Below are positions 38,234-60,934 of a DNA stretch of 64,000 bases, in pieces (position 1 is the stretch's first letter; each line of letters opens with the position of its first letter). The stretch is from assembly GCA_963457665.1 (NCBI GenBank), contig OY735237.1, positions 3,722,822-3,786,821 on the forward strand, read 5' to 3'. The notes beneath the pieces are model-generated. The model did not search any database. It saw only the letters and a list, made by a program, of their open reading frames with translations, and had not been told where the DNA came from. This stretch comes from Thysanoteuthis rhombus. Taxonomy: Eukaryota; Mollusca; Cephalopoda; Oegopsida; Thysanoteuthidae. The position numbers and the translations under genes were made by a program.

Positions 38234-38309
38234 ATGGCCATTTTACTGAACTCATCACTACAAGACCAGCTGCCACAATTGGCTAGAAAGCTTTCAGAAA
38301 TTGGCCCAG
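38234..38309 (+). CDS. ALPK1: ALPK1 coding exon 1
   Basis: The exon has 25 codons plus one base, beginning [19 protein letters not shown] and ending at CCAG/GTAAGG. The start aligns within a few residues of the human N-terminus (VAVLLQEC). An in-frame stop lies at 38180-38182. A good acceptor (TTTCAG, 38184-38189) sits between that stop and the ATG, so a non-coding 5' exon is likely and a short upstream coding extension cannot be excluded. Confidence 0.8.
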
Positions 38310-39544
38310 GTAAGGATTTTGATTTGAAGTTACACTAATTCCTATCATTACTAGAAAATACCTGTTGCTTTGCTAAAAGTATACCTGAAACTGTGTCCTG
38401 TGTCAGTATGCTTACACAATAATTTGGAAGGTTTATGCCAGGTATTGCTCACTAAAATTCTTGTATTCATTTTGTATTAAACTTGAAACCACTAAAATGT
38501 TGAGACATACACTAGTTGGCATTGGACTTTATTGTCATCGATTGCATCAAGTGGGTTTGGGTCATAATCAAAATCTGACATGAAAATTATTTTCTTTCAT
38601 TGTATAGAAGCAGACTTAATCGTTCAGTTGGATGCTTATTGAGAAGTCTTGAGATTGAATAAGGATGAGACAGGTTCTTACTTTAAAATATTTCCACTGA
38701 TTCTTTCGAAAAGTTTTTTTTATAAATAATTCAAGTAATCCAGGAGTAAATACTGAAACTGTCATCAAGTAAAAATTTTAGTTAGTAAAATACTAAAAAT
38801 GTGGTCTTCCTTGGTGTTTACAGATAAATTGACTTATGGCAAATCTGCACATATGAATACCAGTGTCATTAAATTTGTTGGTTTATTCATTTGACATGTT
38901 TAGCTCACACTGAGCCAAACTGATTTATAAAATTAGCAACGGAGATCTGATGTGATTTGAATCCACATCCTGTGATAATCAGATATGGTAACCATTATGT
39001 CAAGCTAACTGTTACAGAACATGTATATTAAACAAATTGTATTTGGTAGGGTGAGTTGCTTTTTTCGCTTAGTTAGATTTTTGTAATTGTTCAAAGAAGT
39101 CACATTGATTCATTTTTCATGTACATTTTTTCTTCAATCCAAAAGCTCATTAAAGCAAAATAGTAAAAAAATAAGAAATTTTTAAGATTTAGGAAAAAAA
39201 ACCCCCTCTAGCCTTCTACATGTTCTTTTTTTGAAAAATCCATTGTGTGATCAAAAGTTCTTTTTCTCCAAGAGCTTATAGTAACCTTAGATACATAAAA
39301 TCTTCACAAATTTTAAAAATGTTTTTCATTCTAATTTAAAAATCCAAAACCTGATTTTACAAAGTTTTCTTATGATGAAATAAATACTTTACTGAAAATT
39401 GTATTTTACTGTATTTTACCAAGAAACATATGCACTTTTAGATTATGACTCTATATATATAAATGTATTTGTCATAAAATATATGTGTGTGTGTATATAT
39501 TTTTCTCAGTGTACGTGTATATACATATGTATATGTATGTATAT

Positions 39545-39604
<60 letters not shown>

Positions 39605-42600
39605 TAAACTTGAGTATGTCAATCTCGTGTATTGGTTAACTCTTGCTTTATGGTCATGAAATCATTAATTCATGGTTTGTTTTTTGGAAGCCAAGGGCTG
39701 CTCCAAGTCCTTCCCATTATGATTGAACTTTAGCCTATGAAATTATTACTCATGTATAAGTTGACCCTCAGTTTTTGCCTAAAAATTTGGTCTTCAAAAC
39801 TCAACCCAAACAGAAGTATATACTGCACACACACACATATGCATATATATGTATGATTACAAATTGCGTTGTATTATATTGAAACTATATTTGAAATGAT
39901 CTCCTGTTATTACACTGTGAATGTATCATTTGTCCTAGTCAATGTAAATAGAATAAACAATGAAAGAAAATGGGACTGCTGTGGGAATCAAACTATTGCT
40001 CTTATCACTGAGCAAAGCAGCTGCTGGTACAGCAAAGGCCCAAGTAACTGTTTTAGTTCCAAATTCTCATTGTCTCTAGCTGCCCTGTTTGTTTCTATCA
40101 ACTTGGACAAATTGTATTATTAAGATATGGATATACGATCCGACAGAATGATCATAAATTGCGTTATGTTATGTAGAAACTATATCTGAAATGATCTCCC
40201 GTTATTACATGGTGAATGTATCATTTGGCTTAGACAACGAAAATAGAATAAACAATTAAAGAAAATGGGACCAGTGCATAAGATGAAAGTACTTTTGATA
40301 CACTGTAATATTTTGTTTTAGATTGACTTAAATATCTACATTTTTTTTCTTTTAAATGAAGATGATGTTCCTAAACATATTCGTGAGTGTCTATCCAAAG
40401 AAAATGGTGAAGAATCCCATTCTGAAATGCACCAGGAATTGCTGCATCTACTTTCTCCTGATATTCAAAAATATGTTGAATATGCTTACATTCAGGCGTG
40501 GCCATTTCTCCCACCCACAATGGATCCGACCATTATGAGGGAACCCAATTCACAAATTCCGAAGTTGAGTCAAGTCGAAGTTCTACTTGTGAGTAAATCT
40601 GCAACTTCTCGAGATATTGTTACGATTAAATCTTCCGCTTGTGTTCAACGAAGGTGGAGACAGCAGTAGCATTATTTTGTTTGTCTGTTTTATGGAAACC
40701 AACAATTAAAACTGTCAGCAAAGGTTTCATCAGTTTTTAAAAGATTCTGGCTAACTATATATGGCATGTATCGCACATGCAGGCCCCCAACCCACCCTAT
40801 TTACTCCTCATTATGTCTTGAAAAAATTTTTTCTATTTTTTTTTTTGGAAATTCACACCCAAAATAAGTTTTTAGTAGGAGTGTTCAATTTATAATGGAA
40901 GTTTATGCTAAATTGGTCCCTTAGTTTGTGTCAGGCAGTATTGCGGCTTGTTTTTTTTTAAAATTCAGACTATTTAGTGATCTAACAAAAAGTGAGCGAG
41001 GTAACTTGTTTATTTATCACCCCCTTTTCCATTTTTTTAATTGATCACTCTCAACACAGCATGCTGCCGAAAGACATTGGTCAACTGACAGTTTTTATCG
41101 AGTGACTAACCAGACCTGTATTGTCTTGTCATAAACTCTAACAATAGCCTTAGCACTGGGATTCCTTCTGAATTGTACTTCTCCTAAGACAAGCAAGGGC
41201 AGAGCTGGTTTTCATAGTAGACAGGCCCTCCCCAGTTGGCTGGTTGTTGCAACACAATCTTCCAATTCCTCTCCGCTTTGTAAATAACAAGTATCCATGT
41301 TTTTTGAAAGTTCACTTTACACCATCTTCTTTGCTTTCAAAGAGAAGAAAAAAAAAAAAAATAGTGTATGGCGTTTGTTTTACAGCAAGTCTTTATAGAG
41401 GCAGTGCGTACCCTCTACCTCTCTTTCCTACTTGCCAGTCTCATCTGTGTTGCATAAGTTTCGGAAATAATGCATGGTCCATGTATTTGTGAAAACATGT
41501 TTGTGCACTATTCAGATCAAACCATCGGGTTGGTCATGAGAAATGTATTTCTTGGGTAAATGGTGTGTATTCTTTTAACGCGTAATGAGATGAACTATTT
41601 TCAGCATGCTAATCTAGCAGAGAATTCACTCTTTCATGTAAAATTCAGTTAAACCATTTATCTTTTCTGCAGGATATAAAGTTATTAATGTTTTTGTATT
41701 GTTTGCGGATACATTGACCATACAGATTATTTCCTCATGGCCGCCCTGGCAGCCCTGAACTAGATTCATTATTTTTTTTCCAGTCTTGAAATTCTTTTCC
41801 TAGGGTTAGGGTTAGGGTTACATGGTAAAATTGGAAATTAATTTCAAAATTGGAGACAGTGGAGAGAATATTTACTAAAATGATGAGAGAGATTTGATAT
41901 AGATGAATAGACTTAAAAAGTTTGGTATGACCATTTTGTTTGAGAGCAGGTAAGAGGAGACTTAATTGAAACTCTCAATATAATAAATGGCTTTACAAAT
42001 TACTGAATTCTAATGTTTAGTAAGTCAGATAATAAAGGTAATTCACTAGCTAGGTATATTACGAAAACGAAGTCATAAAAACAAGTTGATTTTTTTCTCC
42101 TAAAGAATTTTGAAATTCCAGAATAGTTTACCATCTTATATGAAAAAATTGTACAAGTATGAATATTTTCAAAAATAACTTTGATAAATTTAGTTCCTAT
42201 GGGGTAGAAAATAAATTGATCGGACAATCTTGGGAATTATCACAGAAATATACACAAGAATTTAGGAAAAATAAATAAATAAAATGTGTCTTGTAAATAT
42301 TCCTCTGTACTGGAAAGATTTTGAAAAAATTTTGTAACGTATATTTTTATTACTTGAATGAATGTATATTTTAATGTTGAATAAGTATTTCTAATGTAAA
42401 TTGTTTAAGGAGACGCCCATAGAGGCATTTTTATTCAATGAATAAATAGATGAGTAAATAAAGATCTTCTTATGAATTCTGTTTTCAGTTGAGTTTAAAT
42501 TTTGCTTTTGAGAGTGAAAACTACAAAATGGCATTGTCGATTGCCTTTGTTGTTGACCGATATGTCTACTGGTGTAATGGTTCTGCTGCTCTGCTTAATA

Positions 42601-45600
42601 TTGTGGACCAAATCAAGAAGTTGGCTCCCGAGCTCCCTGTGGCTCCTCAGCTGGTCATTCGAAAAGCCCGAGTCATGAAGGATAATGGGGATCTTCATGG
42701 AAGTATTCAGATTCTCAACAATCTTATCGAACAAAGACCGAACGATTATCGTAAGTGAATCAGATTTCATTTAGTTATCATTCAGAAACCGCCAACCAAA
42801 AAAATGTCACCAGAAATATCAACATAGGTCTCTTCAGTTGTTATATTGGTCTGGCAGGCTGGTTATGTATGCACCACTTCTACTGGCCCCACCAATGGAG
42901 CTAGATGGCTGAAAATTGGAACATTTACTCCCTATATCTATAATAAAGAAAATCTTCCAAAATAGGCTTTTAGTAGGATTCAATTTACGATGTAAATTTA
43001 TGCTAAATTAATCCCTTAGTTTGTATCTGGCAGCTTTCATGCTTGTTTTAAGAGGACTCAAACTTTTCTAGTGCTCACTGCCCTACTCGAAGCGAGAGAA
43101 GTAACATATTCATTGATCATCATTTTTCCCAATTTTTTAATTGATCACCCCCGAACAGCATCCTGCCAATAGATGTTATACATGTGACAGTTTATTTTGA
43201 GTGACTAACCAGAACTCAGCAAATGTAAATATTGATTGCAGAATTTGTTCAGTAATAAAAACTTGCTGGACCCATGGAAAATGAGATTTGAAACCATGAA
43301 AAACTACTACAATAAGGGGGTTTGATACTTCATGACCATTATAGAGGAGTCAATGAGCCATAAAATCACATTGTTGTGCTCAATTCAATAGAGGATTAAA
43401 GTCTTTGAAAATCCTCCTTGAGTAAACTTGTCTAGCAATAGATGACCACTTTAGGGGAGTTGATGTGCCACAAAATTGTAGAACTAAATTGCGCTTCATT
43501 TGATGAAAATTCCCAATCTAAAGTTGTGTTTAAAACTTGAAAACTTTTTAAAACTTTTTGGGCTTGAAAATAATGCAACAAGATTATTTTTTTCTCTAAT
43601 TAATATGTAAATACATGGGAAATAATTTACTTGATCATTAATGTCTTTACTTCTAGAAATTATGCGAAGCGTGTTGAAGATTTTATTTTTGTTTATTTTC
43701 AGCCACTGCTGATTCTCCATCAAGATGGGAGTACAAGGCTAAAGATCAATACGACAACGTTTGTGCTGTTTGTGTCCAAATCAAAGGACAAATTTATCAT
43801 AATCTAGGTTTGTAACATGTCCTGATATCATTTGGGTTTGTGACGTGTCCTGACCATTACATCATTTATAAGAGAATTTTAAAAAAATGATTAACATTGA
43901 GTAAAGCACATGTTCGCTCTGGATTGCAAAATGTCGAGATTATAATCACTGGGAAAACACTTGGAAGAGATCTATTCGGGTGGAACGTACGAGTCATGTT
44001 AGTGTTATCATCCCTTGAAAAATAGTATTGCAAATTTTTTATAAAAACTCTAATACTCAAATCAACGTAAATTGTTCTTTCTGTGCATTTTCATTATGTA
44101 GAAATTATTGTGAACATTCTGGGTATGAAATACACAACAGAGTAAAGAAATTTTTGTTGATTTAAGATGAGTTATTGATATTGAATTTTTTTGACCATCC
44201 TCATCTTTCCATATTAATTCTAGAAATCGTCAGCCAAAACAGTTAACATAGGTTTATTCAGTTTTTAAATGAGTCTGACTGGCTGGCTATCTAAATGTGA
44301 TGTGAAGGGCTGAAATATCTAATATTTGCTCAGCTTGTTCAAGCTTGTTTTTTTTTTGATTTTGACCTTTCTTACAAAACACGAGAGAAATAAATTATTC
44401 ATCGATCACCCTTTCTTCCAATTCTTTTAAATTGATCAACTTCCGATCAGTCGTTCTTTTGCAAAACAAAAATAACAAAAAAAAGTTTTTTGCAAAGTTT
44501 TTTGAGTCATCCTTGCCTCTCTATACGAGGCTCTGTCCGTCGGTTGGTCCATAGGCCTGTTCGCAGATTGTTTCTCAGCTGTTTTAGGTCAGATTCTCTT
44601 GAAATTTTCCACTCAGGGTCAAATGATCTGGCACTAGTTGCGTTTAAACTTTATTTTAAAATTAATTTAATCTGTTGTTTTGAGTCAGATTTACTTGAAA
44701 CTTGATATAAAGGTGTTCCTCGATAAAATGCTTCTTACCTAAAATTATCTTCTATTCAAGGTCACATGATCTAGCAATAATGGAGCTTAAACTTTATAGT
44801 GGATGCCTCATTGAACTTTTTGGTTCTTGTTTCTGAGATACATAAATAAATTTTTATAACCATCAAGTTCCCTGAAAAGATTTTTTAAAAGCATTCATGG
44901 TATTGTTTCTCTGAATTTTTGAGATGAGGTATTATTATTATTTCTATCAAATACCAAAAACTGTCACCTGAGGTTTAAGGCTCCTAAAAATTAGCACCGG
45001 TTGTCCACATGGACACATACGGGTTAGAGAATCAGACAGAATTACTGCTAGTAATCTAATGGTTCTAGGTTCAATCCCAGACAATAATAATTTGAAAATA
45101 CTACTACTGCTAAGAGGGGAGTGTGGTCTATATACCCCTGTTTGTTAGATAAAGGGTTTGGTTCGTTACTTCCCCCACACCTGATGAAGGCCGTAGAGTA
45201 CAACGGCCGAAACGTTGTATGAAAAACAGGATAGTCCGAATGATAATAGAAATTCATGGTATTATTTGCAGGTTTGTGGAAAGACGCCATTAGTCCTTTA
45301 AAGGAATCTATTGAAAGATTTCAAGCCCTTCCAGAGGAAGATTTGAAAGGATCTTCCTATTCCTATGGCTTGCTGTCTCGGTGTTTATCCCAGTTGAGCA
45401 GAATGGAATATCAAGAGTTGCATGCGGAGTATCAATTCAGAAAGAATCATCAGTGGTTAGAGGCTTATGAGATGGGGCAGATAGCTGTAAAAAAGAGTCC
45501 AAATCAGAGGCTTTTTCGTAGCAAGCATTTGGTAAGAACTGTTCTTTTTCCTGATGAGGGTAAATAGGCAATCATCTCTTTATATAAAAACCAGTGTCTG

Positions 45601-47767
45601 TTACTTTGTAATGCTACGGTTCAGTTTATATCCAAGAGTATGGACAAGATTATACTTCGCATACATAGCTTCAAAATATTTTCACATCAATGTCCCAATA
45701 GGGTGTACTGATGGTAATGTGTAGAAATCTTAAGCATTAAGAATCTTGGTTAAATTGTATGCTAACTAGCAGCATGGTAACTGCCAAGCCTGAACTCATC
45801 TAACGTACATGGTGGAAATGGGACAGTTGAAAGTTCTTGAAGGGATTATTCTGTTTGAAAGGTAAAACTGTACAAGTTATTACTTAATTCAGTCAATTAA
45901 TCCTCCATTTTACGTTACAGAATTGTAGATCTTTGAGTTAGTGAAATAATTCATAGGTTGATTGAACGCATGCAATTGTCTTCAGTTACAATATAAAACT
46001 ATCACTATTCTTGATGTACTTAACGAGTGCACTAGTTCACTTATAATAAACAAGAGAAAATTTCCCCAAAAATTACTTACTAAAACTTGGCTTTACGTTT
46101 TTTTGGTTTTTTTTTCACTCTTTGACAGCTTCAGTGTGGAGAGATTATGCTCATGATACTTGTTCAAAACACAGTGTCACACTTGGATCCCTATCTTTCC
46201 CAGCAAGAATTGGAATTGTTGCAACACTGGTATCCTTATCAGACCGTGCATGATTTATGTGAGGTGTTAGATCACCAAAATCCAGAAGAATATTATCGGA
46301 GCAAAGACCAACTTTTCATCTTCATAAAAGCTTTGTTTGTCACCTGTCTCATATTGGGGTGTTCAGATGATCCTGTAGACAGGTAAGAATTTGGAAGAGA
46401 CTTTGCTTTGGATTCTTACTTGTAGATACTAGATAGAGTTATCACTTTTGCTTTGTTAACAAATTCTTTTGTGTGTATTTGTCTATATTATATGTGTTTT
46501 ATATGTGTGTGTAATCATGTATCTGTATTTACGTGTGTGTTAGCCAAACTGCTGGGATACTACTGTGAAAGGGCAGCAGACCTCTATGGCTGGCTCCGGC
46601 ACTTGTCTGGGAGAAGGTGTCTCTATCTATGACCTTTGGACCTTACAGCAACTTTCCTTGCTTGACCATGAACCCTTGGTTTAAAGGGTGGGTCGATCAT
46701 ATCATGCCACACTTAACCATGAAACATCATCAGCACAGGCTTAATGGCTCTTCCTGTCATGTGGGTCCACCTGAGGGGCTGCAACATATGTGGGATACCC
46801 TCATTAATCTTCATTTGCAAAACCATGACATATGCTATTATGATGATTTGGGCCAATGTACTTTCTATACCTTTTCCTGATCAAATTTTGAAATACAGCA
46901 ACAAAATGTTAAAATATGCCAAGCAGACTAAATATCTGTGCCACGATTCCATTAACTTCTCTCCAATTTGCTTGGCATATTTGTTAACTTGCATGTTGAA
47001 TTTTAGAATTTGGTTGCTCTATTCTTCAATTTGATCACCATATTTCAAAATTTGGTTGCTGTAGTTTTGGATTTGGTTGCAATATTCAAAAATTCTTAAT
47101 TTGCTTGCTTTACTTTTCAATTTGCTTGTGAAAAGGTAGATTAAATAAGATTTTTTACTCAAGCTCCTCAGACTTATTCTTCCTGTTGGGGTGGGTCACT
47201 CCTCTGCTCAAGACACCAGTAATCTTTGTTGTTGTCTCCTTGGTTATAATACATAACCTGATTCCATGTCTCATCTATCTTTTCCTTAAATATGTTCACA
47301 TTTGGTGCTCTGACTATATCTTTTGGAAGGACATTCCAAATTGGCACTGTGCACTGTGTGGAACTGTTTCCTTTCGTCTCTGTTTCACATCTCTTTGTCT
47401 TAAATGATTTTTTGTTCCCCTTTGTTGTTCATACTCTTGCGTTTGTTTTGCTTATGATTTCAAATGTTTCAATCACATCCATCCTCAGTCTCCCATATCT
47501 GAGTGACGGTAGGTCCAGTCCATTTCTTTCTTTCTTCTTATGTTTTCTTTCAATATCCCCAGATTTTGTCACTCTCCTCTGTACTGTTTCAATTGCATTA
47601 TTTCCATGTATATATATATGTATATATAATGTGAACTGTAAAGACTGAGACAGACTCGGGAGTAAAGTGTTCAGAGGTAAGGTTTATTAATCCTTAGATG
47701 TTAATGGTCCAGATATGTTTTGGGATTTTTCCCATCTTCAGTGGTGTGTGCTGTGCGAGTATGTGCT

Positions 47768-47798
<31 letters not shown>

Positions 47799-50700
47799 GG
47801 AGGGAAGGAAGGAAGATAATCTTCTGAATTGCATATGTGATGAGTATGCTATTAAAATCTCTGATGTATTTTTTACCCTCCGTAGACAGCCTTGAAGTTG
47901 AATTTACTAACGATGTGACGGGAATTTTATCAAAATTTTGGGACCCTTTTTCCCTTCTTGATTTATCATCCTATTTTTTTATCAACTTTACTGTACGCAA
48001 ACTTTTCCTGAGATCCGAGGAAATTCTTGGTCCCTGTTTGGTTCCTATGCCTGCTGTAGATATACAGCCCTGGGCATAATGTGCTCTGTACAGCCCGCTC
48101 TCACTGGCTTTACTTCCTTTGTTCATTCTATATCCTATATTAGCTCATAAATGACTTGTAAATGGACACTCATCCCTCAAATTCCATGGGGGCTGAGGCG
48201 AAAGACACCTTGCAAAATTGAAATAGCGTCTGGCCCTGCCAACTCTGACAGTTAGCTTCAGTACAGGTTCTCTTTTTGAGATTTTTTTTGTCAGGGTAAT
48301 TTTTCAAACAAGTCCACATTATCCCTAATTATTTAAGTATGCTCTAAAAATCCAGAAAGGGCAGAATTTAAAGCATTTTTCTAGTCATTATCCAGTGGTC
48401 TCTAAACACCCAGGGGACTTTGCGGCTTTCCCTAGCCATGTTCTACATTTCCATTTTCAAAAGTCAGCAACCCTACTTGCTATCCTTAGGGACATTTCTT
48501 TTCTACTACCCACTGTGCCCCCACCCCGACAAACAATGAACATTTGAGCGATAAGGGTGTCAGTACGATGTTTAAAACTTTGTTCTTGCTACATTAAGTT
48601 CAGTTTCCCTCCATTTCTACTATTAGAAACTTCCAACCAAATTGTCAATGTAGGTTTCTTCAGTTTTATAGTGGTTCTGGCTGGCTTGCTATGTATATGT
48701 GTGTCATGCATACCTGACCCCAACAATGAAGATAAGAGACTGAAAATTTAAAGATATACTCATTATAATGGTTTTGACCCCCTTCCCCATGAGCTTTTTG
48801 GGGGGTGGGAATTTCAGACTTTTTAGTGATCCAACCAAAGTAACCTATTCATTGACCCCTTTCTCCAATTTTTCAATTGATCATCCCCAACTCTGTATGC
48901 TGTTGTGACATTGGTCACCTGACAATCTCTTTTGAGTGACTAGTGAGTTTTCTTAAAAATGCATACAAAGGTATACATTATTGAAACAATTAGATCATAT
49001 AGCACAATGAATCTGCTTTAATTCTGAAGCCTTTTTTTAAACTTTTTCCAGAGATTTGGGTTATCGCCTGGAGACAATCTGTCTGTTTGTCTATGGGAAA
49101 TTCTGCGACATCAGTGACAACCAACTTGACTCAGCGATTGGGACGAAAAATTTAACTGAAATTATTCCCGCTTTGAACTTTGCCCTAAAGATATTCAAGC
49201 AAAAAAAATTGGATAATTATAGAAGGTCTATTGCTGAAAATGCCAATGATAGAGATAGTTCATCAAAGGGCTTGGAGAAAGACATATTAGTGGATTCAAA
49301 ACAGTTGAGTAAAAATATAAAAATGAATTATCAACAAGAACACATTGCAGAGATATCGAGTGGAAAAGATCCTTGGCCAGTCAATTCTGAAACTGACATC
49401 CTCGGAAGATCGATAGACCAGAAGGAGAGAACTCTAATAAGAGGAAATACAATAGAAAATTGGAATGCTGAAACCCAAAAAAGGGTGATGAACCTAGGGA
49501 GATCTACTCCTATAGTAGATTGCAAGGCAGGTACCCAGGGAAGGTTGGGAACTCCTTGGGAGGGGACGCCAATGGTAGATTGTAGAGCAGAAACCAAGGG
49601 AAAGTTGGGAACCCCTGGTGAGGGGACACCAATGGTAGATTGTAGAGCAGAAACCAAGGAAAGGTTGGGAACCCCTGGTGAGGGGACACCAATGGTAGAT
49701 TGTAGAGCAGAAACCAAGGAAAGGTTGGGAACCCCTGGTGAGGGGACACCAATGGTAGATTGTAGAGCAGAAACCAAGGAAAAGTTGGGAACCCATGGGG
49801 AGGGGACAGCTATGGTAGATTGCAAAGCAGAAACCAAAGAGAAGTTGGGAACTCCTTGGGAGGGGACGCCAATGGTAGATTGTAAATCAGAAACCAAGGA
49901 AAGGTTGGGAACCCATGGGGTGGGGACACCAATGGTAGATTGTAAATCAGAAACCAAGGAAAGGTTGGGAACCCATGGGGTGGGGACACCAATGGTAGAT
50001 TGTAGAGCAAAAACCAAGGAAAGGTTGGGAACCCCTGGTGAGGGGACACCAATGGTAGATTGTAGAGCAGAAACCAAGGAAAGGTTGGGAACCCCTGGTG
50101 AGGGGACACCAATGGTAGATTGTAGAGCAGAAACCAAGGAAAGGTTGGGAACCCCTGGTGAGGGGACACCAATGGTAGATTGTAGAGCAGAAACCAAGGA
50201 AAGGTTGGGAACCCCTGGTGAGGGGACACCAATGGTAGATTGTAGAGCAGAATTCAAGGAGAGGTTGGGAATCTCTTATGGCTTGACTCGTGTATTACAG
50301 AATTTTTATGATTCTGCTTTGAAAAGTTTGCAATCTCTATTTCAAAGAAGAAATGAAAATTCTGAGCTGAAACCACGACTTGTTGGCTCACCTTGTAGTG
50401 TGTCTTCAATTCAAAGCAAGGTTTCATCATTCGACCGATTGTACAGAAATTTTGAGGATTTCTATAGAGACACTGATTCCTCAGCACTTCAAAGTAAAGA
50501 TGAGTCTTTGGTGAACACATCGGCTTTGACTTCTATATGTCAGTCAAGACAAGATGGAACATTTTTGGCCAATCGGTTACTTAATAAATTCCAGGTAAGA
50601 ACTTCCCCTCAGCCCATTTTGATGTATTTTGTAATGTCATCTCAGCTTGGATCAGGCAATGAAGTTAACTCTTGAATTCATATTTTTTTAAAAATGGAAA

Positions 50701-51115
50701 GTCTTTATCAAGGGAAATAACCTCCAATTGTTATTATCACCCTTTGACCATTGAATGATTTTTTGATAATTATTTCTTCAATTCAATTCACAGAAGAGTT
50801 TCATTATTTTTCCACTGTCAATTACAATTGTTTCAAGTGGTTCATGTATTTGAGAGTTAAATACTGTAGGATTCTACCTGTAGTGCAGTGAACAGGATAT
50901 TACTCTGTTAAAGAGAGATCAATTACATTGGACTTCCAGACAACACTAACTTAACACACCTTTAGATGGATAGATAGATAGATGTGAACAGACTAAGATA
51001 GATATGAAGAGACATAGATATGAAGAGTCTGAGATAGTTATGAAGAGTAGGATTGATAGGTATGAAGAGATAGATAAATAGATAGATATGGAGAGACAGA
51101 TAGACGTGAACAGAT

Positions 51116-51164
<49 letters not shown>

Positions 51165-54100
51165 TAGGCTGGGATACCTAGATGAATGGATAGATATCAA
51201 TAGACTTAAATAGGCATGTATAGGAATACTTTGAATAGTGCAGGTTTTGATGTAAGGTTGAGATATTGCCGGACAAATTAATGTAAAAAACTGTAAAAAA
51301 AATGTAAAAACTGAAAAAAGAAAACATTAAATCATGATAAGTCCTTGAAGAGTATGGATTTGAACAGAACAAAATATCTTTAAATTTGGTCAAGAAAGGG
51401 AATTTGATGAAATAGTACGTAGGTACTTTTCTAGTTAGATGACATGAGAATCGAGATAATTCTAGATACAATTTAATGCAGTTCTGGGTACAAGATTAAA
51501 TATTTCCAACGGGTGGAGTTAGTTGATGTTCAAAGAAAGAATTTATAAAGTAGATAGGTGGAAAGACTGATTGATGAAAATTGGGATAACATTCAATCAA
51601 AAAAAAATAAAACAGTAATAAATATATCATCATCATCATCAGTCTTTCAACGTCTGTCGTTGGACATAGACCTTCCTCAGGATTCCCCTCACTTCAGAGC
51701 CAGTACTTTCTGAGTAAATATATCAATTAAAGATTAATATTATTATTATTTTTTTTTTTTTTTCTATTATTCACTTTCATCTTAATTGTTGTTGCTTTTT
51801 ATCCCAACTAAACTCAGGCTGGGTTCCCTCAGACAGTGAGTCAATAAATTGGTCCAGAATAAAGTTCCAAGTGAGAATCAAACTCACGATCATCTAATTT
51901 GAATCCACTCTCTACCTTTAGCAAAAAATTTATTAATTTTTTTTTACAATACTTCATCTGATAAAATAAATAAAGATAAGATGTACCATTTGATAACAAC
52001 TTCAAAGCAGAAAAGATCTGTGTAGGGTCAGTATAAGGGTTTTATTTAGCCAGGGGCTTGTCACTGAGTTCAAGTGGTTCAGTGGTAGGAATAGTCATGT
52101 GTTAAGCGAGACACCCACTCGGCATAGAGGGTTATGAGTTTGATTCTCTCCTTGAACTTATTTTTCATTCCAATCCTTGCTGTTAATTCATTTACTCACA
52201 GCCGAAGGGAACTCAGCCTAGGTTTATATTTTTTTTAAATAACAAAAATGATTTACCAAACTTCATCTTATAGAATGAATAAAAATAGAATTGAAATAAA
52301 TTGTTGGTTCAGAAAACATACGATTAGAAACTGAAACTCTGAACAAAAAGGAAATAAATCAAACTTTTTGGCGATAAGATATATAAAAAATAATTTGCAT
52401 ATATCATAAGATAAGAAATTTTATGCAAAAATTCCAATACCATTGTAAAAATGTGATGATTAAGCTATTTTAAAGGTCTTTTTTTTTTTTAAAGTACCTT
52501 TTATATCAAGATATGGGTAAGTTTTTTTTTCATTCCAGTGTATTCCTTTATTCATTTGAAAAAATATTTATCTTCAAAGAAATATCCTTATGAACAATTC
52601 CTGTTTCTAATATTTTGGTATACTTTCAATGTAAATACAACTTTTCTCAAAGAGCAAAGTCTTATTTGATTGAAGCAGAAATTGCTACTAAAAGCTGAAG
52701 AAACACAACTCTCACATTTTTACAGAGAGAGGTAGAGTAGGAGCCCAAGTTTTGAGAGAGGGGGACCATAAGGGAAGTAAAATTTCCCTTCAGGCAACAG
52801 CCTGAGGTTCTCTGAGAAGGAGGAGATCTTTCTAAACTAGCATGTTCTCCCTCTTACTCTCTCATCCTATGTAAAAATGATACAAAGCAACCCCACACTC
52901 TTTGACTATCATTGAAAAAATCATACGTCAGTGAACTTTGCCTGTACCTGGACAAAAAATTTTGTCTGTTTCAATATAGATTTTCTATATGAATCGATCA
53001 ACCCTCCTCGAATACATTTGAGGGGTGATTTTCAAAATTTAACTTGCTAAAACGCTGCCTATAGCTCACAAGAATACCCCCTGGGCTGTCCTGTACAGTC
53101 AGGCGGGAGGACATTTAGTGAATTATAATTAGATAAACTGAAGTGAAAAGATGATCTGTTGCGAAAGGGGGGGGGGTCGAGTGTGCCCCAATTTTCCTAC
53201 TCAAATCTTCTAGTGGTGCTTGAATAAGGTTGCATGCCGAATAGTGGCTTCCACTCTAGCCTTGAAGGGTTCTAATTTTGACGAGGGTCATTTTTTGTGT
53301 TGTCATTTTCTTTTTTTTGTTTAGTTACCAGGAGAAAATAATCGAGAGTAGAGTAAGAGTTCGACAAAAAATTGTCTCAAGGAAAATATAGCTCGTAAAG
53401 ATTTAAAAACAGACCAGAAGATCGTTTTTCGGCCCATCATATGTAAGGGACGTAATTTGAAGACAACTCAAGAGTTGTTTCCCTTGCATTGATTTGAAAT
53501 TTCTATCGATATCCATGGAAATTATACAAATAACACTGAACCGATTTTCATCTATCTATATATGTATACATCTATCTATCTATCTATCTATACATCTATT
53601 TATCTATTGGATCATGTTTAACATCACATGGAGGTATCACAAGACAGGGTAGTATATTTTAGAAAAAAAGGAGTCTGGGATATCATAGAATCCATTAGAA
53701 AACTCAAATTATGGTGGGCAGGCCATGTTGATAAAATGAAACTATCGCTGAACATCACAACTCGCAACCTGGATCGCCTGAGATCATGTGCGAAACTGTG
53801 GCCGGAAAAAGATAAAATGGCATGATGATTGTAACAGTATCAGAAGATATTGGTTCCGCAATGCCTACAATAGAGAGATCTGACAAATCTTGGTGGAGCT
53901 CCATGTCCAACGACGGTCGTTAAAAGACTATTGATGATGAACTGTGAGAATATTAACAAAAGCAAATCGGACCCAAAACAAAGGCCATTATTTTGATCAA
54001 TTTCAAAGTTTTGGGAAAAAATTGAAAAAACATCATTTAACTAGAAAGTGAGTCTGGAAAGTTAATGTCATGCTTATCAATATATAATCAAATATTTTGA

Positions 54101-55778
54101 TGGCATAAAGAGGGGGATGATTTCTTTATTGTTCTTATCAGTCAAACTGATTCCCCATTTTCAGGCCATGGTAGTTTTTATTCATTTCTCTGAGGTTGTT
54201 ACATATGAAATGTTATTTTTTGGATAATAAAATGAAGGACGATATAAAAAACCCAAAACTATAAATATCTAATCAAAATATCGATTTGAAGCAATAAGCC
54301 TTTTCCAATGATCTTTCAATGATAATATGAAATCTCTATGAAATTCTTTGGATTTAGTAGCCTCAAAATCAGTAAAAGCACAAATTATCGTTTCCCTATT
54401 ATTGAACCTTTTATTAAGGACATGAAGTTCAAAACGCTCAAAAAAATGACAATCTGTAGGAGAAATGTCAGGTAAATATGGAGGATACTGACTTCATATC
54501 TCGATTCCCTAGGCTCTGACACAGTGAGCCTATAGGTTTGGAGTCCGGTACTGTCATGGATCATTTCATCCAGTTCATATGGGACTATTCGAAAAATTTT
54601 CCTTTTATCTTGAGATGATGTGTTATGGTCACTTTTGAAGTTCTAAAGTCTCTGGACAGTTCTTGAACCGCTGTTTGCCAGCTGTTGACCATTGCTTTTG
54701 ATAATTCTTCCTCATTAAAAACAAGTTCGGTCCTCCCTCAAGACATAATTGATATCCATATTTCCAGACTCAAACTTATTTGAGCAATGTAAAGTAGTTT
54801 GCACTATGATAGTGTCTACTTCATATACCTTGTTGACATCATCAGCAGCTTGAGCATCATTATGTCCTAATTTGAAATCATACTTAAAAACTAATCCAAC
54901 TTCTTGGGTAGAAATGATTGCTATTAAGGGATCAAAAATCTGGAATGATAACGAATCATATCCCTGTCGTATACAAGTCAATCAAATTTGTAAATCTTTC
55001 ACTTTTAGCATTATTCTCTTCCTGACCCCCTGGCATTTCATGTATAGAAATCCAATACTTGTGTGTCTGTTCATTTTTTTTTTTACTAATTTTAGTTCTT
55101 TTTTTTATATGGGTAGAGTCGAGAATCTCCGTATAAAAAACAACTGAGGGTTATACGAGTGTCAGAGAAGTACCCCACTTTCACAACCTTTCTTGGGTCG
55201 TCCTTACCGGAATCTTGGTTTGAGCTTTTTGAGATTCATTTCAATCGTTCAGTCCCAAGTTTGGAAGTTGATTCTGTTAACCAAGATGGGACAGTCAACA
55301 AAATCCATAGTAAGAACTTTTATATCTTATTATTGGATCACCATAGCCACCACAATCAGTCAAGTTGGCTACAAATTCTTTGAGTGTCTCTGTCTACCTA
55401 TCTATCTATCTATTGAACAACAAGTGTAGCCATCAAAGATGATGAAGGATTCTATCCTTCTTTACATGTGTGTGTGTGTGTTTGTTTATTTGTGAGTTCC
55501 AGCACTTCTGCCCATACCATTTTGTCTGCAGACTTGAAAATTAGAATCAGTTCTCCCCTAGATCCCATATAAAAATTTTTTTTATTTTTGGAAAAAAAGT
55601 TTTTTTTTATTTTTGGAAAAAAAGTTTTTTTTTTAACTTTTGGGAGCTCCATTCGGATGGCTTTATTTATAACATCTGGATTTTACAGAATCTAGATGTT
55701 TCTAGATGTTTTTTTAACTCTTATTTTAGATGTTACTCAGTGGAAAATGCCAGTGATGTCTATCTATACGTGTGTGTA

Positions 55779-55822
<44 letters not shown>

Positions 55823-58800
55823 TGTGTGTGTGTGTGTTTCTCTGGATACTCCTGGTCACATTTTTTGGGCTATAACCTTACAAATTTAGATGAGTACCCC
55901 ACTAGTCACCCTCTAAAACTGTTTTTTTTAGTTCCAAGGTCATTTTGAACCAACAATGCCCAAATCTTGTGCTGGTAATTTTTAGATTATTCTAGATAAA
56001 AGATCTATTTTTTTGAGATGATTAGTTCTGGTACACGTGCTGGCTATGGTGATTCATCCATGTAAGGTAGGGATATCAGTTAGATCTTTACTGTTTTCCT
56101 TCTCAATCATTTCAACATCTTTTCTCATCAACAGAGGCAACCTTGTATCAGTACAATCCAGTGACATGTATATGGTCTGGCCAGGACACAATTGCCCGGA
56201 CGGGTAAAGAATTGACCCTGGGGAAAGGGAAAAAAGGCAATTTCCGAAACGTCTACCAAATCAATTTCTTGCATCAGGATGAACCATTGGGCAAGTAAGT
56301 CTCATTCTCTTGTTTAGTAAGTAAAGTAGTGTCCCTATGCTAGCTCCTGTGAAAGACACCCCTGCACAAGTTCCCCTATCTCAGCTAGTTCTTTGAGATT
56401 TGTCAAATAGAACTTGGGGTGACAAGCCCCTAAAGTGGCATCACTGACTTTACTCTGGGGAGAAGAGATGGATTCATGCCTTTTCAAAAGGAATTAGTCC
56501 AAAATGAAAGCAGAACTCACCAGAGTTCGAACCTGGATGCTCAACTCCAAAGGGAATTAGTCCAAATCATCCTTCTTGGAGAGAACCTACACGACCTCCA
56601 ACTAATGCTAGATGATCTAAAAGAAAGCAAAAAAGTAGGCCTACTCATGAACTTCAGTAAAACGAAATTCATGTGCAACAATCACATTGAGAATAAGAAC
56701 ATAACTGTCAAAATAGAAGATACAAAACTAAGCATGGTAGACGACTACATCTACCGCGGACAACAAATCTCATGAGATCCTCAAAAGAGGAGGAAATCAA
56801 GTAAAGAATCACTCTGTGATGGCAAGCCTTCGGCAGAGCAAGCTCAACTTTCAAGAATCAGGTGGTCCCAATAATTCTAAAAAGAAGAGTATACAACCAA
56901 TGCATTCTCCCAATAGTCACTTATGGAGCTGAAACATGGAATCTATCCAAAAGAAGGACCTACAAACTGAGAATCATGCAACGTACATATGAGAGAATCA
57001 TACTCAACCTTACATGGAGAGATCACAAGACAGTACAGTATATCAGGAAGAAAATGGGTGTCCAAGACATCATAGAAACTATTGAAAAACTCAAATGGCA
57101 ATGGGCAGGCCATGTTGTAAGACTGAAAGACAACCGATAGACATCACGTCTCACAACTTGGATCCCCAGAGATCACATAAGAAACCGAGGCCGACAGAAC
57201 ACAAGATGGAGGGACGAGCTAGACAGATTCAGGAAATACTGGCTCTGTGGCGCCCATGATAAAGAATTGTGGCTAATCCTAGGGAAGGTGTATGTCCAAC
57301 GACAGACGTTAAAAGGCTGATGATGATGATGATGATGAAAATAGATCTCAGTTAGTGTTTGAACCTCAGTCACTGATCCCTTTTTCTAAGCTGCTAACCG
57401 CACACCACTGGCTCTCCCACTTTTTGTTGGTAATTGAGAAAATGATCTCAGTTTGGGTTTTGATAGAGACCTTATCAAAGGGAGTTAACCTGTAAAAAAA
57501 TGGTCCATAGTTTCGAGAAGTCATTAATCTTTTAAGTACAGTTCTGACACAATTGAACTTTCTTTTTATTATTTTTGTTATTTCCATAACGTTTTGGCTG
57601 ATTCATTCTTCAGGCACACAATTTGTATGTAGTGAGGGGCACTCTTTTTCTGGTAGTGCCAAGTTAAAAAAAAAAGGGTTACAGATTTTTTCTTTGAGGA
57701 GAGGCAAAAAAAAAATGCCTGAAAATAATGTGCTACCATTATTTAACTGTGTGCTACCATAAAAAAGAGTCCCTTTGTTTACGTATGGAAAGCACACCTG
57801 GAGAAGGCTGTAGAATGCATCAGTCAAAATGTTGCGTGAACAAAAAAATAACAACTTTCAAAGGGGAATTATGAATCACCCATGTATACCATGTTAGGCA
57901 TGATCAATTAAAAAGTTGGAAAAAAGGCTGCCTACCTTTGTATCTATCTATTGAGGCTTTGCCTACCTTTGTATCTATCTATCCAGACTTTAAGACTTTA
58001 CCCACCTTTGTGTTTATGGTTTCATACTTTGCCCACCTTTGAGTCTATGGTTTCAGACTTCGTTACTTTTCAGTTGATATCAAGATTGTTCCAAATTATG
58101 TCTAGAATCATCTAGAATTTCATGCTACTTATCTAAAAAAATATCTAGATTCTATTTCATCATGTCCCCTTCCATGGCCAAGATTAAAGATCTTTTTCAG
58201 TTAGAGGAAAAAAGGATTTTTACTAAAGTTGAAATATTTTGGAATCTTATGAGCTAAGTTGTTTGAGCTTCAGACCGAGTGAAGTTTGATCTGAAGCAGA
58301 CAGTTTTGTTTCTTTTATTGTTACTATGTTTCACTTGATTCATTCTACAGCCTTCTCCAAGGATAGAATCCATATGAAAAACGAGCATCTCTTTTTTTTT
58401 TCATTTTTTCAGGGATTGCTTAACATGAATGCTTGCCAACAGAAAAGGATGTACAGAAGACTAATTAAGAATCAATTAACTTATGATTTAATTATTAATA
58501 CTTTCAGAATTTATTGGCAGATAATTTTGGGGTATCGAGAAAATCAATGAAAAGAATGGAATTATGACAAATCTTGTGAAAATTAAAGAAAGTAATTGAA
58601 AAAGTCTTTAATTAGTAAATGAACCCTATAGACAGGATCTTTTATGATCACTAGTAAAACTGGTTTGGTTAGTCACAGAATAGATATGGTCACATGACCA
58701 ATGTCTTTTGGCAGCATGTTGGGGATGATCAATTGAAAAATTTGAAAAAAGCAGAGATCAATATATGAGTTACTTTTCAATCCTTCTGTTGGACAATGAT

Positions 58801-59963
58801 CACTAAAAATGTCAAAATTTTCAAAAAACAAGCCTGAATGTTGCCAGAAGAAAAGATAAGAAAAGCAAACCTGTTTTGGTAAGGAATTTAAATCTTAACA
58901 AAATGAAACGTTTGCTTCAGACATAATGAAGAGTAAATGTTTGAATTTTCAGCCCTCTAGATCTTCAAGTGCAGCTTGTATGCCTGATATGTACATACAT
59001 AGCCAGTCAGCGAGACTAGCTTAAAACCTGAAGGAACCTATGTTTTGGTAGATAGTTTCTAATATGTTGCTTTGTTAACGGTATACCTCAGGGTAGAAAT
59101 CTGAAGCACTGTAGTATTTGAGAACCCCCCCTCCTTCTTTCTATCCTTTCCACCTGACCCTAATCCTAAATTCTAACCTTCTGAGTCTTTAGTCTTCATT
59201 TTTAAAGTGATTTAGATTAAAAACGAAATTGACACAACTGTAGTAGTAGTAGTTATATTACTAGCAGCCAGCAAACACAGATTCACAAACAGCTCAACTT
59301 GCTTAGTCCCATCCGATTTTGTATTACTATACTCACTCTAATTCTTACTTCTTTTTCTGTTTTTTTCTGTGACTGACAGACAGACTCATCATAAATTATA
59401 GTATAGATTTCATATAATTTCTTACTCTTTGCAGATATGTGAGCAAGCGTTATCGACAGCAGAGGGAATCTTTGCAGTACATGGATGATGTTGTTTGTCA
59501 GATGCAGGCTGGACTCTATGTGAACCGCTTCAACCAGGCCTTGATGGCTTTCGAGACTGATCTCCGTATCCATTTCCTGAGGGCTGCCTTCATGCTTCTG
59601 TATGACTCTGACGGAAATGTCCAAGATTGGATGAACGTCGAACCGTTTGTTGATGGCGAATTTTTGAAACTCACAAACAACTATGACTTCTGCAATCCAC
59701 GGGGCAAGGATGTTTCAACGTCATTCATCCATTTTACCTACGTACAGTCCGAGGGCAAAATGATGGTTTCGGATCTGCAGGGTTGGCTGCCAGCAGGCAC
59801 TCAGAACTTAATATATCTTACCGACCCACAGTTTCATACGCACTCGGGAGATAGCAGCCCGTTTGATTTTGGTGAGGATGGGATGAAAAAGTTTTTTGAA
59901 GCCATGCATCCAGAATGCAATTTGATATGCAAAGTTTTGAACTTATCGAGGCCAAATTTGTAA
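38234..59963 (+). CDS. ALPK1: ALPK1-like alpha-protein kinase 1, spliced, complete
   Basis: Ten coding exons (38234-38309, 40362-40588, 42489-42750, 43703-43807, 45272-45531, 46129-46382, 49052-50594, 55168-55309, 56135-56294, 59435-59963) sum to 3558 nt in one frame: 1185 residues, against 1244 for human ALPK1. Residues 1 to about 440 match the helical N-terminal sensor domain. Residues 548-807 are a repeat linker, and about 960-1185 are the atypical alpha-kinase domain. The human protein binds ADP-heptose in the cytosol and phosphorylates TIFA. Aligned pocket residues F74, R125, R159, R162, D247, K249 and F305 equal human F61, R116, R150, R153, D231, K233 and F295 (human list recalled from memory). 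Kinase signatures are K1014 in GKYVSK, D1123 in SDLQGW, D1140 in LTDPQ, and the zinc ligands H1168, C1171 and C1175. Other alpha-kinases (EEF2K, TRPM6/7) lack this N-terminal domain. Confidence 0.93.
38935..39020 (-). repeat. tRNA-like SINE head
   Basis: On the minus strand, GTTAGCTTGACATAATGGTTA (A-box-like) is followed after about 30 nt by GGATGTGGATTCAAATC (B-box-like). The cloverleaf is imperfect and no 3' CCA-adjacent stem is seen, so a pseudo-tRNA or SINE head is preferred over a tRNA gene. Confidence 0.5.
39549..39600. repeat. (TA)n microsatellite
   Basis: About 52 bp of TA inside ALPK1 intron 1. Confidence 0.96.
39850..40282 (+). repeat. Two tandem copies of repeat family C
   Basis: Copies at 39850-40010 and 40128-40282 share AATTGCGTT, GAAACTATAT and GAAATGATCTCC, then GTGAATGTATCATTTG and AATAGAATAAACAAT. 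The third copy is at 34670. Confidence 0.8.
40362..40588 (+). CDS. ALPK1: ALPK1 coding exon 2 (sensor domain)
   Basis: The exon is 227 nt, phase 1 in and phase 0 out, flanked by a T-rich tract plus AG and by GTGAGT. It encodes the stretch [20 protein letters not shown], corresponding to human LPSELRTLIQEAKEMKWPF. F74 matches human pocket residue F61. The position of human Q67 is Asp here. Confidence 0.92.
40690..41118 (+). repeat. Interspersed repeat family A
   Basis: This near full-length copy (about 430 bp) starts GGAAACCAACAATTAAAACT and ends GACTAACCAGACCTG. Marker blocks are GGTTTCATCAGTTTTTAAAA, GCATGCTGCCGAAAGACATT and a CACCCCC run. Confidence 0.75.
41801..41820 (+). repeat. Short interstitial TTAGGG repeat
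   Basis: Three consecutive TAGGGT units. This is the usual metazoan telomere motif, but it is too short to indicate a telomere. Confidence 0.85.
41850..42262 (+). pseudogene. Decayed CR1/Jockey-type LINE reverse transcriptase end
   Basis: Plus-strand translation in broken frames gives [23 protein letters not shown]-like and FEIPE-like blocks in the order of the C-terminal end of non-LTR reverse transcriptases. Many stops and frameshifts are present. Confidence 0.55.
42489..42750 (+). CDS. ALPK1: ALPK1 coding exon 3 (sensor domain)
   Basis: The exon is 262 nt, phase 0 in and phase 1 out, flanked by TTTTCAG and GTAAGT. It encodes [10 protein letters not shown] (human IVFLVDRFLYG) and [12 protein letters not shown] (human PIAPQVVIRQAR). 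R125, R159 and R162 are conserved phosphate/heptose-contacting positions. Confidence 0.95.
42783..43215 (+). repeat. Interspersed repeat family A
   Basis: The copy starts CAGAAACCGCCAACCAAAAA, includes GGTCTCTTCAGTTGTTATAT and ends TGAGTGACTAACCAGA. It lies in ALPK1 intron 3. Confidence 0.75.
43703..43807 (+). CDS. ALPK1: ALPK1 coding exon 4 (sensor domain)
   Basis: The exon is 105 nt, phase 1 in and out, flanked by TTTTCAG and GTTTGT. It encodes [20 protein letters not shown] and then GQIYHNLG, matching human VCIQIRGQILQKLG. Confidence 0.93.
   Translation, partial: PLLILHQDGSTRLKINTTTFVLFVSKSKDKFIII
44222..44470 (+). repeat. Repeat family A (internally deleted copy)
   Basis: GAAATCGTCAGCCAAAACAG, then GGTTTATTCAGTTTTTAAAT, then ATTGATCAACTTCCGATCAG. 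Confidence 0.65.
45005..45245 (+). repeat. tRNA-like SINE with CTGATGA-hairpin-GAAAC motif
   Basis: A B-box-like GGTTCAATCCC (45068-45078) is followed about 100 bases later by CCTGATGAAGGCCGTAGAGT and ACAACGGCCGAAACGTTGT (45179-45217). The GGCCG/CGGCC stem is perfect and is flanked by CTGATGA and GAAAC. Three decayed relatives of the hairpin occur at 14040, 57797 and 61770. The motif resembles half of a hammerhead core, but one extra A separates CTGATGA from the stem. Confidence 0.55.
45272..45531 (+). CDS. ALPK1: ALPK1 coding exon 5 (sensor domain)
   Basis: The exon is 260 nt, phase 1 in and phase 0 out, flanked by TTTGCAG and GTAAGA. It encodes [23 protein letters not shown] (human ALPQPDKKGL; D247 and K249 conserved) and NQRLFRS with F305 at the human F295 position. 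Confidence 0.93.
46129..46382 (+). CDS. ALPK1: ALPK1 coding exon 6 (end of sensor domain)
   Basis: The exon is 254 nt, phase 0 in and phase 2 out. It encodes the helices around [17 protein letters not shown] and [20 protein letters not shown], matching the human GKQELHSFVKAAFGL region. A second in-frame acceptor six bases downstream (46135) would remove only LQ, so either start is possible. Confidence 0.88.
47175..47610 (-). pseudogene. CR1/Jockey-type LINE reverse transcriptase fragment
   Basis: Minus-strand translation contains [30 protein letters not shown], and [20 protein letters not shown], the standard C-terminal blocks (RLRGDLIET, R...N...F..R, WN.LP..VV.A.S...FK) of these elements. 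Frameshifts or stops interrupt it and no endonuclease part is nearby. Confidence 0.85.
47770..47815. repeat. (TA)n/(GA)n/(GGAA)n microsatellite
   Basis: A short TA tract, GA repeats, then GGAA repeats. Confidence 0.9.
48625..48950 (+). repeat. Interspersed repeat family A
   Basis: GAAACTTCCAACCAAATTGT, GGTTTCTTCAGTTTTATAGT, and the distal block with TGATCATCCCCAACTC and TGACATTGGTCACCTGAC. It lies in ALPK1 intron 6. Confidence 0.75.
49052..50594 (+). CDS. ALPK1: ALPK1 coding exon 7 (linker with 60-bp repeats)
   Basis: This long exon of 1543 nt is phase 2 in and phase 0 out, flanked by TTTTTCCAG and CCAG/GTAAGA. It begins with the last conserved sensor helices ([15 protein letters not shown]), then a polar disordered segment, thirteen 20-residue repeats at residues 548-807, and a Ser-rich tail with a QSKDES-type composition. 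Human ALPK1 also encodes most of its disordered linker in one large exon. The repeat content itself has no counterpart in the human protein. Confidence 0.92.
49509..50288 (+). repeat. In-frame minisatellite, 13 x 60 bp, inside ALPK1 exon 7
   Basis: Thirteen consecutive units of exactly 60 bp encode the 20-residue unit [20 protein letters not shown]. Units 3, 4 and 10-12 are nearly identical in DNA, while units 1, 5-9 and 13 carry replacements (P-W, H-G and G-V variants, KSETKE). Each unit has one Cys, an acidic/basic ETKER patch and up to two Thr-Pro sites. Because 60 is divisible by three, the complementary strand is also open throughout. Near-identical internal units point to recent unequal exchange or slippage. 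Confidence 0.97.
50960..51165. repeat. GATA-like array ending in (TA)n
   Basis: Irregular ATAGATA/TATGAAGAGA repeats run into a 44-bp TA tract at 51119-51162. Confidence 0.92.
51628..51713 (-). mobile_element. RTE-type LINE 3' end (minus copy)
   Basis: On the minus strand it reads TACTGGCTCTGAAGTGAGG, GGTCTATGTCCAACGACAGA, CGTTGAAAGACTG and a (GAT)n tail. This matches the ends of the copies at 53599, 56530 and 60935. Confidence 0.75.
51740..51920 (-). repeat. tRNA-like SINE, minus orientation
   Basis: Minus strand: CGTGAGTTTGATTCTCACTT (B-box-like), then GTGAGTAAATAGAATC-type spacer, AGGGAACCCAGCCTGAGTTT and a poly-A end. It is related to the plus copy at 52060. Confidence 0.6.
52060..52270 (+). 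repeat. tRNA-like SINE, plus orientation
   Basis: TGGTTCAGTGGTAGGAATAG resembles a tRNA A-box/D-arm, and GTTATGAGTTTGATTCTCTC a B-box. The body CCGAAGGGAACTCAGCCTAG and an A/T-rich tail follow. It forms a head-to-head inverted pair with 51740-51920. Confidence 0.65.
53599..53945 (+). mobile_element. RTE-type LINE 3' fragment
   Basis: In broken frames it encodes [20 protein letters not shown], the C-terminal WQWAGHV block of RTE-type reverse transcriptases. It then carries TGTCCAACGACGGTCGTTAA and a short GAT tail. Confidence 0.8.
54280..54900 (-). pseudogene. mariner-family transposase relic
   Basis: Minus-strand translation gives the N-terminal DNA-binding helices ([32 protein letters not shown]), then [20 protein letters not shown], and after a deletion the C-terminal [18 protein letters not shown] and [14 protein letters not shown]. 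These are the order and motifs of irritans/mori-like mariner transposases. Most of the central catalytic domain is missing and stops are present. It sits in ALPK1 intron 7. Confidence 0.85.
55168..55309 (+). CDS. ALPK1: ALPK1 coding exon 8 (linker to kinase), 5' border uncertain
   Basis: From 55168 the exon is 142 nt, phase 0 in and phase 1 out, with donor CATA/GTAAGA. It encodes [20 protein letters not shown] then a segment ending TVNKIH, aligning with human [20 protein letters not shown] and SQLHRAH. The 5' border is weak. GTGTCAG would start at 55166 but breaks the frame with exon 7, whereas GAG/AAG at 55168 keeps the frame but is a poor acceptor. An unseen small exon in the 4.5 kb intron before it is possible. 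Confidence 0.72.
55555..55636. repeat. Short tandem T-rich repeat
   Basis: Two to three units of about 28 bp built of TTTTTATTTTTGGAAAAAAAG. Confidence 0.8.
55770..55838. repeat. (TG)n microsatellite
   Basis: About 65 bp of GT dinucleotide with few interruptions. Confidence 0.95.
56135..56294 (+). CDS. ALPK1: ALPK1 coding exon 9 (kinase N-lobe)
   Basis: The exon is 160 nt, phase 1 in and phase 2 out, flanked by CAACAG and GTAAGT. It encodes [16 protein letters not shown] and the basic loop [19 protein letters not shown], matching human KKKGRQRNAFWVHHLHQEE. Confidence 0.94.
56530..57340 (+). mobile_element. RTE-type LINE, 5'-truncated
   Basis: The longest copy in the window. Blocks in order are [14 protein letters not shown] (thumb side of the reverse transcriptase), [54 protein letters not shown], then [11 protein letters not shown] and a (GAT)n tail. 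A stop after RGQQIS and frame changes show it is dead. No endonuclease domain is present. Confidence 0.88.
57330..57440 (-). repeat. tRNA-like SINE head
   Basis: Minus strand: GTGTGCGGTTAGCAGCTTAG (A-box-like) then CAGTGACTGAGGTTCAAAC (B-box-like). It begins right at the GAT tail of the RTE copy. Confidence 0.45.
57790..57925. repeat. Degenerate hairpin element and family A fragment
   Basis: ACACCTGGAGAAGGCTGTAG and AGTCAAAATGTTGCGTG (plus) are a decayed copy of the 45179 hairpin. TTAGGCATGATCAATTAAAA (minus family A) follows. Confidence 0.5.
57930..58065. repeat. Imperfect tandem repeat
   Basis: About four units with the core GCCTACCTTTGTATCTAT or GCCCACCTTTGAGTCTATGG. Confidence 0.75.
58652..59078 (-). 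repeat. Interspersed repeat family A (minus copy)
   Basis: Plus-strand text runs GGTTAGTCACAGAATAGATA, CCAATGTCTTTTGGCAGCAT, TTTCAGCCCTCTAGATC, then GAAGGAACCTATGTTTTGGT. This is the reverse complement of the 40690 copy. Confidence 0.75.
59435..59963 (+). CDS. ALPK1: ALPK1 coding exon 10 (kinase core and stop)
   Basis: The exon is 529 nt including TAA, preceded by CTTTGCAG. It encodes the ATP-binding lysine motif [22 protein letters not shown] (human SVEPYILGEFVKLSNN), the [11 protein letters not shown] strand, SDLQGW, the metal-site LTDPQFH, the Gly-rich FGEDG turn and the zinc motif HPECNLIC. It closes with LNLSRPNL, close to the human LSLTRPS end. All expected alpha-kinase catalytic elements are present. 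Confidence 0.96.
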
Positions 59964-60525: not shown

Positions 60526-60934
60526 CTTTGTTGTTTTTATCACAACTCTGGCTTGGGCCATCATTTTACAGTTACTAATAAACAGTACGATTGGAATGAG
60601 AACCCAAGTCTAGGTTGACATAAACCAACTAAAAATGATGTTGAAAACTGTCAAAATTAATGAAATGATGAAATGATACTTCATCTAATATTGAATCTAT
60701 ATTCCACCTCCTCTCCCCCACAAAATGAATCATCAAAGCCAAGTTGTTTTATTTTACTCGCAATACCCTCTCTCTGTAAATTCTTATGGAAAAGGAAGAA
60801 TACCTTTAACCTAAGTTTTTTTGATAGTTTATTCAGGTCTTTGACCGTAGCTACAATGATTCAATAACAAGATTGCTTTGATACTATTACTAACTCAAGA
60901 ACTTAAACAAAAACATGGCACTAATTTATGCAAA

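Follow-up and report, generated by a model that had tools for sequence, protein, structure and literature searches.

Does a cephalopod possess the ADP-heptose receptor ALPK1 and, if so, would its pocket still read the same sugar? The question is raised by a gene within the 64,000-nucleotide stretch of Thysanoteuthis rhombus DNA analysed here (the window, whose positions are used throughout). The available portions of the literature assign ALPK1 to vertebrates: PMC12457700 describes both TIFA and ALPK1 as missing from invertebrate lineages, PMC11573728 confines ALPK1 homologues to vertebrates while counting Mollusca among the holders of heptose enzymes, PMC11461863 repeats the vertebrate origin and PMC13143021 presents ALPK1-3 as the three vertebrate alpha-kinases. 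Among the literature matches listed, which comprised titles and the openings of abstracts, with subscription papers and database annotation lying outside, none reported an invertebrate ALPK1; automatic annotation may already label such genes ALPK1-like.

The gene occupies positions 38234-59963 of the forward strand and is real, with nine exons (E1-E7, E9 and E10) that all display AG/GT borders and a tenth, E8, that is doubtful. E1 (38234-38309) supplies a candidate start codon and the first residues and ends at a CAG/GTAAGG donor; further exons may lie upstream of it. The sensor domain is carried by E2 (40362-40588), E3 (42489-42750), E4 (43703-43807) and E5 (45272-45531), followed by E6 (46129-46382), an outer part of the domain too diverged to be recognised and placed by its frame and borders, and by E7 (49052-50594), which holds the end of the domain and a long linker. 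The kinase domain begins in E9 (56135-56294) and continues in E10 (59435-59963) up to the stop codon. Joined E1-E7 form a single open frame and joined E9-E10 a second one; splicing E7 straight onto 56135 breaks the frame. Three solutions restore it. The candidate E8 at 55117-55309, lying between linker and kinase and bearing a weak donor, yields 1202 residues; the same exon begun at 55168, behind an unusual acceptor, yields 1185; and a shift of the E9 start to 56137 requires no E8 at all and yields 1137 residues, as counted from exon lengths. The E8 candidate shows no similarity to the expected ALPK1 segment (local score of 16, against a mean of 21 and a deviation of 4 over 1000 shuffles). The length of 1185 residues given in the earlier note is therefore not confirmed, as it depends on the exon with the unusual acceptor, and the sequence predicts a protein of 1137 to 1202 residues. 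That the model fuses two genes, or describes a decayed copy, is very improbable: the junction between E7 and E9 is indeed unsettled over 5.5 kb, but ALPK1 is the best match for both halves, which follow each other as in the human protein and share a strand, and frames and splice borders are intact.

Results of a search of the protein data bank with the first 464 residues show that the N-terminal half is an ALPK1 sensor domain. The human ALPK1 sensor chain 5z2c is recovered with an E value of 2.2e-27 covering residues 41-278, the next chain of any kind lying at 0.024, and E3 on its own finds ALPK1 at 3.9e-10. Identity to human ALPK1 amounts to 32% over human residues 29-262, and the alignment score of the part up to human residue 262 was reached by none of 300 shuffles. 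Beyond that residue the domain, aligned alone, scores no better than chance (801 of 1000 shuffles reached its score), and the outer part alone retrieved no ALPK1 chain from the protein data bank. This outer part corresponds to 46129-46382 and the beginning of 49052-50594; similarity is gone there while the inner part keeps 32%, and a changed partner surface may be what its sequence records. Over the whole genome (2,731,506,558 bases in 514 contigs), a sensor probe returned four exons of the window at E values of 1.3e-16 or better and a fifth and last match at 0.40, and the domain is, as judged from this search, single-copy. Searches for bacterial, viral or phage relatives of the domain, sensitive to fairly close kin, upheld none of 41 pattern matches in genome contigs by tblastn, none of 32 in viral contigs, and confirmed none in phage records; NCBIfam gave no match to the sensor domain.

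The C-terminal half is an alpha-kinase (Pfam Alpha_kinase, E value of 1.9e-38). E10 carries the lysine at 59445-59447 that pairs with the human ATP-site residue K1067, a TDPQFH motif at 59820-59837 and an HPECNLIC motif at 59907-59930. Used as a query that included six in-frame intron residues, E10 finds ALPK1 at 110.7 bits, against 53.5 bits for myosin heavy chain kinase A (MHCK), 49.6 for eEF2K and 35.1 for TRPM7, and E9 alone matches solely the two ALPK1 kinase chains of the protein data bank (E value of 8.8e-5). The pairwise alignment with human ALPK1 gives 63 identities over 174 positions. In the alignment behind the tree, the kinase comes closest in pairwise identity, 40% over 72 columns, to an exon of the same genome that we take to be eEF2K-like. 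The tree of ten kinase rows groups the window kinase with ALPK1 at a support of 94/91, a value below the star level of the program and obtained with three of the ten rows less than half filled and one very long; ALPK2 and ALPK3 were left out of the tree and comparisons alike. An eEF2K- or TRPM-type kinase, the assignment named beforehand as the one that would speak against ALPK1, is rejected by bit scores and tree grouping.

A contrast kinase from the same genome scores 45-56 bits against every family alike. It belongs to a set of three additional alpha-kinase genes that differ in type from ALPK1 (L001, L003 and L005, contig C43), whose kinase lies in the N-terminal part of open frames of 244 to 1495 residues; the ALPK1 sensor domain was not seen in the frames read.

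Membership of ALPK1 is settled by the sensor domain, which to our knowledge is absent from the other alpha-kinase families. eEF2K, TRPM6/7 and MHCK share the alpha-kinase fold and motifs with the cephalopod gene but lack this domain, and they score lower with its kinase. Sensor match, kinase bit score and tree grouping together bear out the sensor-linker-kinase layout first read from the sequence and support the presence of ALPK1 in an invertebrate. The order of the parts is that of human ALPK1 (PDB 5z2c, 8zd3 and 9j4p), whereas the cephalopod linker contains 20-residue repeats. These are encoded by a 60-bp minisatellite at 49515-50271 of the forward strand, in frame inside E7 (12.6 copies, 93% match; 13 units counted).

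The earlier note had aligned seven ligand-contacting residues of human ALPK1 with identical residues here and named Q67 as the single exception. All eight cephalopod residues that it listed stand in the translation at the positions claimed (F74 and D80 in E2; R125, R159 and R162 in E3; D247, K249 and F305 in E5), and the human letters F61, Q67, R116, R150, R153, D231, K233 and F295 are confirmed in the protein data bank chain sequence. In all five pairwise gap settings F61, R116, R150, R153, D231, K233 and F295 fall opposite F74, R125, R159, R162, D247, K249 and F305, respectively. Six of these matches stand; the pairing of F305 with F295 is less certain, since the region after human residue 262 scores no better than shuffles. 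The chance of at least seven identities at nine positions, given a background identity of 30%, is 0.004. According to the available text of PMC11614533 and PMC10723048, R150 contacts the ligand phosphates, and R153 and K233 make polar contacts with the ligand, their alanine mutants being unresponsive to ADP-heptose. All three are kept, as R159, R162 and K249, and the alignment thus supports conservation of the predicted ligand-gripping basic residues. F61, Q67, R116, D231 and F295 we take to be ADP-heptose contacts as well. Human Q67 lies opposite D80 in the five pairwise settings, as claimed, but MAFFT places a gap there. Nor is it the only difference, as Thr237, paired with Tyr253, had been overlooked and Ser277 falls opposite Glu287. 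Predicted folds of single exons were too poor for use (mean pLDDT of 49.5 and 32.4).

These identities weigh on the possibility that the domain layout was kept while small-molecule sensing was lost, the shared pocket residues being structural. Divergence of the outer half of the sensor and the lack of a detected TIFA (see below) are in keeping with such a loss; retention of the three basic residues and of the D231 and F61 equivalents at about 30% overall identity (seven of nine positions, chance 0.004) opposes it, and we consider it quite improbable.

The substitution at Thr237 changes the reading of the pocket most. Tyr253, encoded by 45358-45360 in E5, is aligned without gaps and anchored by K249, G250, S252, S254, G256 and Y270, the last matching human Y254, whereas Glu287, also in E5, faces Ser277 in the weaker region of the alignment. 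In the portions available of PMC11614533 and PMC10723048, Thr237 is described as the gatekeeper for the sugar, with which it forms a hydrogen bond, and its loss opens ALPK1 to activation by human nucleotide sugars; the human T237M and T237A forms are activated by UDP-mannose and ADP-ribose, T237A alone also by GDP-mannose, T237M retains the response to ADP-heptose, and neither published mutant loses the site. Because Thr237 is replaced by tyrosine and Ser277 apparently by glutamate while the basic residues are kept, the cephalopod pocket is predicted to retain its phosphate grip with an altered sugar end. The same two alignment positions are changed in the ROSAH syndrome forms of human ALPK1, T237M and S277F; here, unlike in those forms, they hold a tyrosine and a weakly placed glutamate that are fixed in an animal genome, where the rest of the pocket had freedom to co-evolve.

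Taking these features together, we regard it as reasonably probable that the gene encodes a cephalopod ALPK1 orthologue gated by a nucleoside-diphosphate (NDP) sugar, most likely a microbial NDP-heptose read with shifted specificity, and signalling through an output other than TIFA. Such a protein would be a cytosolic kinase switched on when an NDP-sugar binds its sensor domain; its likeliest ligand class would be microbial NDP-heptose, its specificity would be shifted relative to human ALPK1, and its target would probably not be a recognisable TIFA. Orthology is shown by the same order of parts, the single sensor copy and identity at R150, R153 and K233. A shift in specificity is proposed because the gatekeeper is a tyrosine, and NDP-heptose leads among ligands because the remaining pocket is kept and T237M still allows a response to ADP-heptose. 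The tyrosine at Thr237, the glutamate opposite Ser277, the unrecognisable outer sensor and the absence of a detected TIFA all count against this reading, as do the modest tree support and the 40% identity of the kinase to the eEF2K-like exon.

The main competitor to an NDP-heptose ligand is a specificity that has shifted or broadened. On this view the protein would still be an ALPK1 orthologue, but in place of a heptose it would normally bind another nucleotide sugar, for example ADP-ribose or an NDP-mannose of endogenous or damage-derived origin, strictness for heptose being a vertebrate specialisation achieved through Thr237. The tyrosine gatekeeper and the acceptance of UDP-mannose, ADP-ribose and, by T237A, GDP-mannose in human Thr237 mutants favour it, but tyrosine retains a hydroxyl and does not figure among the human changes tested, and a kinase held constantly on by the animal's own metabolites would be costly (compare ROSAH syndrome); on balance we judge it rather unlikely. 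Some cephalopods host Gram-negative symbionts. Given Tyr253 and Glu287, these data do not establish the proposal that ADP-heptose from bacteria was already sensed before vertebrates arose; since the Thr237 and Ser277 positions differ and no TIFA was found, the option of a related sugar nucleotide, offered at the outset as an alternative, is stronger than was implied.

The genome was searched for a TIFA-like FHA protein, as the earlier note had suggested, and none was detected with either the FHA family or a human TIFA probe. The FHA family gave ten matches from 22 candidates, and by eye none of the ten frames was TIFA-like; several presumably correspond to kanadaptin, SNIP1, SLMAP and NIPP1. 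With phmmer, human TIFA matched none of 15 translated loci, the ten FHA loci included. The TIFA probe returned three matches from eight candidates (E values of 0.085, 2.4 and 7.2), all of which contain stops as reported and two of which are broken throughout. The third, L024, offers at 1492-1620 of the reverse strand (contig C7) an open stretch of 43 residues resembling the TIFA tail, residues 134-176, with an E value of 9.3e-6 at the level of the locus and of 7.24 as reported for the whole genome; the flanking 15 kb or so in each direction contain no FHA-like motif, and the likeness is probably due to chance. The human TIFA gene presumably lies beside ALPK1. Among the 1133 window frames of at least 30 residues there is neither an FHA-like motif nor a TIFA match. 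A diverged or intron-split TIFA could slip past the searches used. An output other than TIFA is proposed because none was detected. For the heptose nucleotidyltransferase family TIGR02199, which was found in 12 of 14 control genomes, the genome gave six candidates and no match (E 0.01).

Set beside human ALPK1, then, the cephalopod protein shares the F61, R116, R150, R153, D231 and K233 equivalents and the ATP-site lysine; it differs in its host, in tyrosine for Thr237 and a probable glutamate for Ser277, in an outer sensor that is unrecognisable and in a genome where TIFA was not detected. A molluscan ALPK1 contradicts the absence from invertebrates stated in the available parts of PMC12457700 and PMC11573728. 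With most of its pocket kept, it also removes the vertebrate-only premise of the scenario in the latter source, which, in the text available, has vertebrate ALPK1 arising after deuterostome loss of heptose synthesis. It provides a natural variant at Thr237, the very position at which substitution leads to ROSAH syndrome, and turns the ligand of the ancestral receptor into a directly testable question. More tentatively, and with the balance of our judgement somewhat against it, ALPK1 could be an old bilaterian nucleotide-sugar receptor whose cephalopod form combines the diphosphate grip with a tyrosine gatekeeper, binds a different sugar and acts without TIFA on an undiscovered substrate; L024, by leaving more room for a hidden TIFA, lowers the odds of this idea slightly.

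Rfam gave no match in the window, and Pfam found none above its curated cut-off in ten other frames. Similar frames containing WAGH occur on the forward strand at 53622-53825, 56820-57320 and 60860-61293, one of which falls inside the intron that precedes E10, and by eye they are likely to be pieces of one retrotransposon family. In the same genome, a squid reflectin probe found 32 matches, of which contig C45 holds 29 and C10 the other three (best identity of 75%, E value of 7.6e-55). Reflectins are, as far as we know, restricted to cephalopods, so these matches mark the host as one. The reflectin-like frames of contig C45 form a cluster mainly between 37.30 and 37.58 Mb.
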